This document shows positions 1 to 3,425 of a stretch of DNA of 12,213 nucleotides, in pieces. The number at the start of each line of letters is the position of its first letter. The first letter of the stretch is position 1. The notes beneath the pieces are model-generated. The model made no database searches and had not been told where the DNA came from. It saw only the letters and a list, made by a program, of their open reading frames with translations. The stretch lies in the NCBI GenBank assembly GCA_024276815.1, contig JAJRWM010000097.1, positions 1-12,213 on the forward strand, read 5' to 3'. Both the position numbers and the translations under genes were made by a program. Source of the DNA: a bacterium. Lineage in GTDB: Bacteria; JACRDZ01; JAJRWM01.

Positions 1-271
1 CGGTCGACGGAAAGGGACGGTCACCTGTCGCGGTGGCCAAAATTATCAAGTCCAGTTCCCGAGCTTCAACCTTGGCGTTTGCCAAAGCCCTGAGGGCCGC
101 CGCCACCGCCATATCAGAGGTGGCTTCACCATCGCCGCAAACGCGTCTTTCCTTGATCCCGGTCCGAGTGGTAATCCATTCATCAGAGGTCTCGACCATT
201 TTTGTCAGGTCGAAATTGGTTAACACCTTTTCCGGCACCCAGGAACCAAGACCGGCTATCCTGCTCTTCAT
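1..271 (-). CDS. fabH: 3-oxoacyl-ACP synthase III (FabH), N-terminal 90 residues, cut by window edge
   Basis: FabH condenses an acyl-CoA, usually acetyl-CoA, with malonyl-ACP to start type II fatty-acid synthesis in the cytoplasm. The visible 90 residues start [15 protein letters not shown] and contain the family's signature segment [17 protein letters not shown] near residues 26-42. They end in DRPFPST, just before the expected active-site Cys of the PFPSTAC motif, so the catalytic triad lies outside the window. The ATG at 271-269 overlaps the plsX stop as ATGA, which supports both the start and translational coupling. The order plsX-fabH is a standard bacterial lipid cluster. The frame is open to the edge. 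Family assignment is firm; acyl-chain specificity cannot be judged. Confidence 0.95.
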
Positions 272-1284
272 AAACCTACCGGCTCTTTAACCGGGAAATA
301 AGCGGTAACGTTTTTACGTATATGGTCGTTAACCCGTTGCTCGGCGAATTTTTCAGCTTCCAAAAGCGCGTTCCTGATCGCTTTCGCCGAAGAGCCTCCA
401 TGACTGATAATTACCGGTTCATTCAAACCCAGGAGAGGCGCGCCGCCGTATTCCGAGTAATCCACCCGTTTCTTGAACCGACGTAGAGCGAAACTCATAA
501 ACAGTATGCCAATCTGAGAAAAGATGCCTTTACGAACTTCCTGTTTGAGCAGCGTCATGACCATCTCGGCGATACCCTCGCCGAACTTGAGCATGGCGTT
601 GCAGATAAAACCATCGCAAACCGTAACATCAGCGCTGCCCTTGGCGATATCGCGGCCCTCAACATTGCCCACGAAGTTAAGCGGCATTTGACTGAGCAGT
701 TCCCTGGTCACTTTGACCACTTCATTGCCCTTGGAGTTTTCCTAGCCGACATTGAGTATCCCGACCCGGGGATTTTTGATCTCCAGCACATAGCGGGCAA
801 ATGCCTCACCCATGACAGCGAACTCAGCCAGTTGACGAGGCTTGCAATCAACGGTCGCGCCGACATCCAGCAGAATCCCCATACCCTTTAAGGTCGGCAA
901 CAACGTGGCGATGGCCGGCCGGCTGATGCCCTTTAGCCGACCGAGTCCGAGAAGTGAAGCTGAAACCACGGCGCCGGTATTACCGGCGGAGACGAAAGCA
1001 TCAGCCTTATGTTCTTTGACTAATCTGACGGCGACATTGATTGAGGAATCCGTTTTACGACGAACCGCCTTGGCCGGCGATTCATCCATGGCGATAACTT
1101 CCGTAGCGTTGACAACGGAGATCAGGTCAGCATCGAACTTGTATTTAGCCAGTTCAGCCTGAATATCTTTTTCCCGGCCAACCAAAACAACTTTTATTTT
1201 ATGCTGACGCGCGGCTTCCACGGCTCCCTGCACGACAACAGCCGGGGCAAAGTCCCCCCCCATAGCGTCTAAGGCTATTTTCAA
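268..1284 (-). CDS. plsX: Phosphate acyltransferase PlsX, interrupted by an in-frame TAG at codon 181
   Basis: PlsX turns acyl-ACP into acyl-phosphate, the acyl donor for PlsY in phosphatidic acid synthesis, at the inner face of the membrane. The N-terminal half carries the family opening [20 protein letters not shown] at 99-105 and [12 protein letters not shown] at 138-149. At codon 181 (742-744) an amber codon follows RVGILNVG. The same frame then continues [18 protein letters not shown] and VCDGF, and stops at TGA (268-270). The total of 338 positions is normal for PlsX. The start is TTG at 1284, with AGGGG about seven bases upstream and 12 bases after rpmF. The segment CNAMLK replaces the more usual GNVxLK. 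Family identity is clear. Whether a full-length protein is made depends on how the TAG is read: suppression, recent nonsense mutation and assembly error are all possible. Confidence 0.9.
742..744 (-). other. In-frame amber codon inside plsX
   Basis: The coding strand reads GGC TAG GAA AAC, placing the TAG inside the conserved block written N-(I/V)-G-E-E-x-x-K-G-N-E in many PlsX proteins. Glu (GAG) is one base away and would restore a typical sequence. The frame is unbroken on both sides (564 bases, 188 codons, between the two ORF starts). A GTG at 720 preceded by AAGGG could allow re-initiation, but would give only the C-terminal half. Confidence 0.93.
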
Positions 1285-1296
1285 CTTCTACCCCTG

Positions 1297-1479
1297 TTAT
1301 TCTTCTTCTGATTTTATTATTTCACGGTTCTTGTAAAAACCACACGCGGAACAGACACAATGCGAACGTTTAAAAGCTCCGCATTCAGGACAAACCGACC
1401 CGGACACAACGCGCAGTTTCTGGTGAGTTCTTCTTTTATCCCGCCTGGTTCTGGAAACGCGGTTTTGCTGAACTGCCAT
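1297..1479 (-). CDS. rpmF: 50S ribosomal protein L32
   Basis: L32 is a small zinc-binding protein of the large ribosomal subunit. The 60 residues begin MAVQQNRVSRTRRDKRR, the very basic N-terminus usual for L32. A zinc ribbon follows with C30-x2-C33 and C43-x2-C46, and the chain ends in an acidic tail SEEE. The four-Cys pattern marks the zinc-containing form of L32. The ATG at 1479 lies just after the yceD TAG, and a GGAGG inside the last yceD codons serves as ribosome binding site, so the two genes are probably translationally coupled. It ends in TAA, 12 bases before the plsX start. The yceD-rpmF-plsX-fabH order is widespread in bacteria and supports the call. Confidence 0.97.
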   Translation of the reverse strand: MAVQQNRVSRTRRDKRRTHQKLRVVSGSVCPECGAFKRSHCVCSACGFYKNREIIKSEEE

Positions 1480-1480
1480 T

Positions 1481-2023
1481 CTACTTATCCTCCATTTTAT
1501 TCTTTAGTTCCCCTAACACCCGCCAGCGCTCATCTTCGTCGTCTGTTTCACAGCCGCACTGAATCTCATTGCGGTTACGCCCGCAAACGGGGCACAGTCC
1601 CAGACAAGCGTCAAAACAACGGGGAACGCTTGGTATCGCCAGTAACACCGCTTCGCGAATATCTTCGCCAATCGGCAGTAAATCATCCCGATAATATGTT
1701 ATATCAAGGTCATCCTTGCCCAGTTCAACCTCTTTGGCGGCAACCTCCGGCTCAAATGACACAGGCTCATAATTTATCACAAATTCCGTGCGAATTGATA
1801 GGGGAAACTTTTTTAAACAAAGCGAGCATTCCAATTCGATCTCAGCCGCCGCCCTACCCCGAAACAAATAAATACCGCCCCTGGGAATGACGCTGGCGTC
1901 GATCTCCACCGGCCCCAGCAGCCGCCCCCCTTCGTAAAAATCCAGTTCTTTACCCGTTTTTCGCCAATGAATGTCCAGTCCCGCGGGTGGTATATCTTTA
2001 GTTGGTATCAGTATCGGATTCAT
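1481..2023 (-). CDS. yceD: YceD/DUF177 family protein (180 aa)
   Basis: DUF177 proteins sit before rpmF in many bacteria. The family has been linked to large-subunit rRNA metabolism, but its molecular role is not settled. The protein shows the usual C66-SL-C69-LKKF motif in the middle. Near the end lies a Cys cluster (C136, C140, C144, C147, C156, C158), including GLCPVCGRN, the family's second signature. I chose the ATG at 2023, which gives MNPILIPTKDIPP. A longer reading up to 2119 would run through nfnB coding sequence and lacks family similarity. No strong Shine-Dalgarno is visible before 2023, consistent with coupling to nfnB. It ends in TAG at 1481-1483, two bases before the rpmF ATG and at the expected family length, so here TAG works as a normal stop. 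Confidence 0.92.
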   Translation of the reverse strand: MNPILIPTKDIPPAGLDIHWRKTGKELDFYEGGRLLGPVEIDASVIPRGGIYLFRGRAAAEIELECSLCLKKFPLSIRTEFVINYEPVSFEPEVAAKEVELGKDDLDITYYRDDLLPIGEDIREAVLLAIPSVPRCFDACLGLCPVCGRNRNEIQCGCETDDEDERWRVLGELKNKMEDK

Positions 2024-2045
2024 TTTGTGGATATCCCAAATAAGC

Positions 2046-3425
2046 CTAGATATTTTGAGCCGCCTTTTTACCGGCTCCCATGGCCAGGATAACGGTCGCC
2101 GCCCCGGTGACGACATCACCGCCGGCTAAAACACCTTTCATACTGGTGGTGACGCCATCATCGCCAACCGTGATATTGCCCCGGCGGTTCACCGCCAACC
2201 CGGGGGTAGACTGCGGTATCAGAGGATTCGGCCCCTGCCCGATAGCGATAATAATAGTGTCCACCGGTATTGAATATTCAGAGCCAGCGATTTTGATCGG
2301 CCTTCGCCTTCCCGAATCGTCCGGCTCGCCCAGTTCCATCTTGATTACCTGGAGCTGTTCGATCCAGTTATCCTCGTTACCCTCAATCCTGACCGGGCTG
2401 GTCAATAAATGGAATTTTATATCTTCTTCCTCGGCGTGTTCTACTTCCTCAAGACGGGCCGGCATTTCTTCCCGACCCCGCCGATAAACAATGGTGACAT
2501 TTTCCGCTCCCAGCCGCTTCGCGACCCGCGCGCTGTCCATAGCCACGTTGCCGGCGCCCAAAACCACAACGTTGTTGCCGATCGAAACCGGCGTATCATA
2601 GCGGGGAAACTGGTAAGCTTTCATTAAATTGACCCGGGTCAAAAACTCATTAGCGGAATAAACGCCGTTCAGGTTCTCGCCCGGAATACCCAGAAAGTAC
2701 GGTAAACCGGCTCCGGAGCCAACGAAAACAGCGTCAAACTTACCGTCAAGCATTTCCTCAAGGCTCAGAACTTTACCGATAACCATATTGCATTCTATCT
2801 CCACGCCCAGAGCTTTGATGTAATCCAGTTCCACATCCAGAATATCTTTGGGCATTCGGAACTCGGGAATACCATAACGTAAAACCCCGCCGGCCGAGTG
2901 CAGTGATTCATACACCGTAACCTGAAAACCCAGGCGGGCCAAATCGCCGGCGCAACTAAGCCCGGCCGGGCCGGAACCGACCACGGCGACTTTTTTCCCG
3001 TTTGGTTCAGGCTTGACCGGCGGCGTAATCCTGCCGGCCTTTTTCGCCGCCGTTTCATAATCGGCGACATATCTCTACAAGCGACCGATAGCGACCGAGC
3101 CAAACTTCTTGCGTAGCGTACATTTCGCCTCGCATTGAGATTCCTGGGGACAAACCCGGCCGCAAACCGCCGGCAAGGTGTTTTTCTCACGAATCTTCCT
3201 GATCGCAGCTAGATATTTATGCTCTTTGATTAACTGAATAAAGGCCGGAATATCGATGCCAACCGGACACCCAGCCCGGCACGGCGCTTTTTTACACTGG
3301 AGACAGCGTTCAGCTTCCGCGACCGCCAGTTCCCCGGTGTAGCCCAAAGCCACTTCTTTGAAGTTAGACTTGCGGACCTCGGCCGGCTGACTGGGCATGG
3401 GATTACGGGGAGCTATTTCCGGCAT
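2046..3425 (-). CDS. nfnB: NfnB/SudA-type NADPH oxidoreductase large subunit (GltD-like), interrupted by an in-frame TAG at codon 117
   Basis: This is the large subunit of NADH-dependent ferredoxin:NADP+ oxidoreductase (Nfn), also annotated sulfide dehydrogenase subunit or glutamate synthase small chain. It carries FAD, an NADP(H) site and two [4Fe-4S] clusters. Visible cluster ligands are C41, C44, C49, C53 and C88, C92, C98, C102. FAD-binding VVGSGPAGL follows near residue 148, and a second dinucleotide fold starts VVVLGAGNVAMDSA, with the family segment YRRGREEMPA after it. The ATG at 3425 has GGGGAAGGG upstream and overlaps nfnA by 13 bases. Codon 117 (3075-3077) is TAG within GRL-TAG-RYVADY, normally GRLERFVADY. 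The call ends at TAG 2046, but the next 15 codons begin AYLG and would complete the usual AAxxIxxYL terminus, ending at TAA 1998. No large glutamate synthase gene is nearby, and pairing with NfnA favours Nfn. Confidence 0.9.
3075..3077 (-). other. In-frame amber codon inside nfnB
   Basis: The coding strand reads CGC TTG TAG AGA TAT GTC GCC GAT TAT, that is RL-stop-RYVADY. Relatives typically have RLERF/YVADY, so GAG to TAG is the simplest origin. The frame is exactly preserved: the two open segments are offset by 462 bases, or 154 codons. The downstream part has no start codon placed to give a sensible protein, because the first in-frame GTG (2984) already cuts into the FAD-binding fold. Confidence 0.93.

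Follow-up and report, generated by a model that had tools for sequence, protein, structure and literature searches.

Gene organization

The stretch of DNA analyzed here (the window, 12,213 bp) makes up the entire contig C18 of a MAG (G000) that totals 2.39 Mb in 246 contigs and is 91% complete and 3% contaminated. The genes on the minus strand of the window include fabH (of which only the start is present), plsX, rpmF, a yceD-type gene, nfnA, and nfnB, and both plsX and nfnA are interrupted by a single TAG codon. The plsX gene (coordinates 271–1284, minus strand) codes for a phosphate acyltransferase, scores 367 bits against TIGR00182 when read through the stop, and matches the conserved domain PF02504 at residues 1–319. 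The second gene (2046–3425, minus strand) codes for an nfnA / gltA-type NADPH-dependent oxidoreductase subunit; it scores 577 bits against TIGR01316 when likewise read through, and solved NfnA chains align with it. At 1282–1290 the TTG start of plsX directly follows an in-frame TAG, and a GTG-to-TTG change at the start codon is possible.

A dispersed repeat of ~105–125 bp with 90–97% identity between copies is present in many contigs of the MAG (e.g. L069 2290–2398, L080 6941–7062, and further copies in L107, L127, L139, L143, and others).

In-frame TAG codons in plsX and nfnA

The plsX TAG is at codon 181 (742–744, minus strand; context ILNVG*ENSKGNE, with the asterisk at the stop) and falls within the PF02504 domain. 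Glutamate is opposite the stop in 24 of 34 homolog alignments, and among the 49 other genomes in which plsX was matched, the gene is free of stops in all but G003, where a fragment at a contig end has one TGA. In nfnA the TAG is at codon 117 (3075–3077, minus strand; context VAIGRL*RYVADYE), within PF14691 (residues 18–127), and glutamate is found at this position in both genomic homologs and in all three of the solved NfnA-type chains shown. Both stops are compatible with a change from GAG to TAG.

The sole further in-frame TAG in the reading frames of these two genes is at 2046–2048 (minus strand), at the end of nfnA, where it corresponds to position 445 of the 449 in the TIGR01316 profile, 4 short of the profile end. 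The homologs have aspartate or histidine here, and this codon may be the genuine stop of nfnA, or else a third candidate for read-through. The first-pass annotation of this DNA listed three Glu-compatible TAG codons in the operon, the third of which is presumably the one at 2046–2048; the glutamate assignment stands for plsX codon 181 and nfnA codon 117, and is ambiguous for the third. At the rate at which glutamate codons of the MAG appear as stops in the regions compared (0.22%; see below), one or two Glu-facing stops per 12 kb are unremarkable, and the probability that two or three such stops are all TAG is ~0.06–0.16, with GAG making up ~40% of glutamate codons. The amber-only pattern in the window is a small-sample effect.

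Disagreement between overlapping contigs

Contig C24 ends with a second copy (L090 3807–4183) of the leftmost 377 bp of the window (1–377); the two copies are 99.2% identical and differ by three mismatches, at window positions 112, 181, and 248, all of them G/T or C/A. These affect fabH, which adjoins plsX in the same operon. Codon 31 of fabH (179–181, minus strand) is GAA in the window and TAA in the C24 copy, and 27 of 28 homologs have glutamate at this position. Codon 54 is ATG in the window versus CTG in C24, with leucine in 23 of 28 homologs, and codon 8 is CTT in one copy and CTG in the other, such that the copies differ by one nonsense, one missense, and one synonymous change. Changes of the G>T/C>A class are thus present in both copies, and no selection is visible.

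A second long overlap, of 343 bp between contigs C2 and C50, also has three mismatches, again all G/T or C/A, so that this class accounts for every one of the six differences in the long overlaps. The third overlap with a mismatch (112 bp) has a single C/G difference, and G/T-class mismatches are thus known from two overlaps only. Elsewhere, several pairs of contig ends share exactly 141 bases with no mismatches, from which we infer a graph assembly with k=141.

Interior stops across the genome

We compared approximately 730 kb of the MAG, or about 30% of its length, with the genes of a genome of the same phylum (G001) and of other relatives, counting a codon only if there was homologous context on both sides. 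Homology was used because a scan based on composition alone was too noisy, flagging gene boundaries as well and giving 10 matches in the control. There are 18 interior stops in the 65,696 homology-covered codons, 10 of which face glutamate (7 TAA and 3 TAG), although low-identity alignments underlie two or three of these ten. One TAG is opposite serine (TCG to TAG), and the remaining interior stops, among them the TGA cases, are weak or face an unclear residue. The reverse comparison, in which G001 was the subject, yielded three weak matches in 59,139 codons and none at glutamate.

About 0.22% of the 4,593 glutamate codons covered in the MAG (~1 in 450) are thus read as stops, and the 7:3 ratio of TAA to TAG at these positions tracks the codon usage of the MAG (GAA:GAG, 39:26 per thousand). 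The 11 best-supported stops comprise ten at glutamate and one at serine, whereas codon usage predicts ~57% at glutamate if the G>T and C>A rates are equal; this excess is mild (p about 0.02) and the numbers are small. The affected genes include rpsA (TAA at glutamate), the DAHP synthase gene (TAG at glutamate), a ClpB/ClpC-type ATPase gene (TAG at glutamate in the motif LLDEIEKAH), and rplA, in which the TAG is opposite aspartate or asparagine in homologs. The first-pass annotation described the interruptions as exclusively amber, a description that fails both in the same operon, as C24 has a TAA at a fabH glutamate codon, and in the MAG, where Glu-facing TAA codons outnumber TAG. The count of in-frame stops that it proposed, made here over the ~30% of the genome compared, likewise reveals no excess of TAG over TAA and TGA.

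A survey of all single-step amino acid changes relative to a related genome shows no G>T excess, although it is underpowered, as natural divergence swamps an error of 0.2%. Frameshifts are not in excess either, with two found in G000 versus one in the control.

Two further genes are disrupted outside of the window. A cas1 gene (PF01867) on the minus strand of contig C48 (L115 9440–10270) contains an in-frame TAA at about 9670 within the motif LADDLL*PFRPLVD, which is probably an error of the same kind as the other stops. The hisS gene of contig C198 (L211 722–2052, minus strand) is split into two overlapping frames that match TIGR00442 positions 1–210 and 196–405, a pattern that a single-base indel in this essential gene would explain, and this too is probably a consensus error.

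Alternative explanations

One way to account for the window would be ambiguous decoding of amber codons by a suppressor tRNA or a pyrrolysine system, as had been suggested from the window itself. Both of the window's secure stops are TAG, the conserved genes that contain them would be nonfunctional without read-through, and in-frame TAG codons are common to the MAG and to organisms with pyrrolysine or amber suppression. However, the MAG differs from such organisms in having neither a tRNA-CUA nor PylS, and in that TAA is affected too. The genome-wide search for these components that the first-pass annotation called for detected 33 tRNAs in the 91% complete MAG, none of them with a CUA anticodon, and a threshold of E≤10 adds none; this absence is incomplete proof, as tRNAs for Trp, Tyr, and Asn were also not seen. 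PF01409 finds a single synthetase, and the only match to the PylS model TIGR02367, on contig C198, is hisS, at 18.5 bits and far below the cut-off of 178. Full reassignment of UAG with loss of RF1 is also at odds with the genome, in which prfA (RF1; 540 bits) and prfB (RF2; 510 bits) are both present and uninterrupted. TAA is more common than TAG at glutamate positions, and the two copies of fabH codon 31 read GAA and TAA. Amber suppression is thus exceedingly unlikely, and the least probable of the explanations considered here. If the stops were true nonsense mutations of recent origin, or the genes pseudogenes in this strain, single-base changes in frames that are otherwise well conserved would be accounted for, but many core genes (rpsA, clpB/clpC, fabH, plsX, and the DAHP synthase gene) would have to have been struck at once and at a low rate, and the well-supported cases are confined to codons compatible with G>T or C>A changes; we regard this explanation as only slightly more credible than amber suppression.

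The main rival is a real population carrying a G:C-to-T:A mutator (a GO-repair defect), in which the T alleles are present in the cells and the assembly mixes haplotypes. The mismatch class of the two long overlaps is as such a mutator would produce, and no MutY equivalog was found in the 91% complete MAG, where the best match to the MutY model, on contig C36 (L212 1393–2028), is Nth (endonuclease III). Against this, MutM is present on contig C60, and the apparent absence of MutY is weak evidence, since half of the control genomes (7 of 14) also fall below the cut-off and the MAG is incomplete. Nonsense changes in rpsA, fabH, and plsX would moreover face strong counter-selection, and the differences in the fabH overlap, spanning synonymous, nonsense, and missense changes, give no sign of purifying selection. 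A mutator population is therefore improbable, if the best of the rivals, and that the T alleles are real and belong to a hypermutating population with a G:C-to-T:A bias from MutY loss, with nonsense alleles reaching appreciable frequency in core genes, is a little less probable again.

Origin of the in-frame stops

The in-frame TAG codons are very probably G-to-T substitutions of an 8-oxoguanine-like type that entered the consensus of a MAG of presumably low coverage, and the interruptions almost certainly reflect sequencing or assembly error rather than a real biological feature or a new reading of the code. We favor this explanation because the changes are of one substitution class, affect core genes at a low rate, are blind to coding effect, and leave overlapping copies in conflict. 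Where alternative copies of the DNA are available in the two long overlaps, they differ by G/T (C/A) changes only, and the stops are of the types reachable by G>T or C>A, in proportion to their source codons (TAA and TAG at 7:3, and one TAG at serine). G-to-T errors in a low-coverage assembly had been among the possibilities raised at the outset, and this one is supported by stops that are not amber-specific and by overlapping copies that differ by G/T (C/A).

A single-base G-to-T substitution in the MAG consensus would convert GAG to TAG, and the same process would give GAA to TAA, TCG to TAG, and missense changes across the assembly. The chemical cause would presumably be damage of the 8-oxoguanine type, or else some other artefact of the library, and where coverage was thin, errors from single reads may have entered the k=141 contigs. 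Artefactual G>T mutations have been ascribed principally to oxidation (PMC12390751), and the oxidative library-preparation artefacts described there are of the same G>T/C>A class as those in the MAG and similarly unrelated to gene function; they are, however, low-frequency mismatches in exome data, whereas those in the MAG are fixed in the consensus. In a previous study of genetic-code screens (Shulgina and Eddy 2021, PMC8629427), in-frame stops that lacked a suppressor tRNA were judged erroneous, and those in yeast were put down to pseudogenes. The MAG shares with these false stop-codon inferences the presence of in-frame stops and the lack of a suppressor tRNA, but the earlier cases are mainly transitions in pseudogenes, or contamination, whereas the changes in the core genes of the MAG are transversions.

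Caution is warranted, as G-to-T errors in a MAG of low coverage can imitate the recoding of stop codons in any single operon. Screens for alternative genetic codes should test the ratio of TAA to TAG against that of GAA to GAG, and compare overlapping contig ends.
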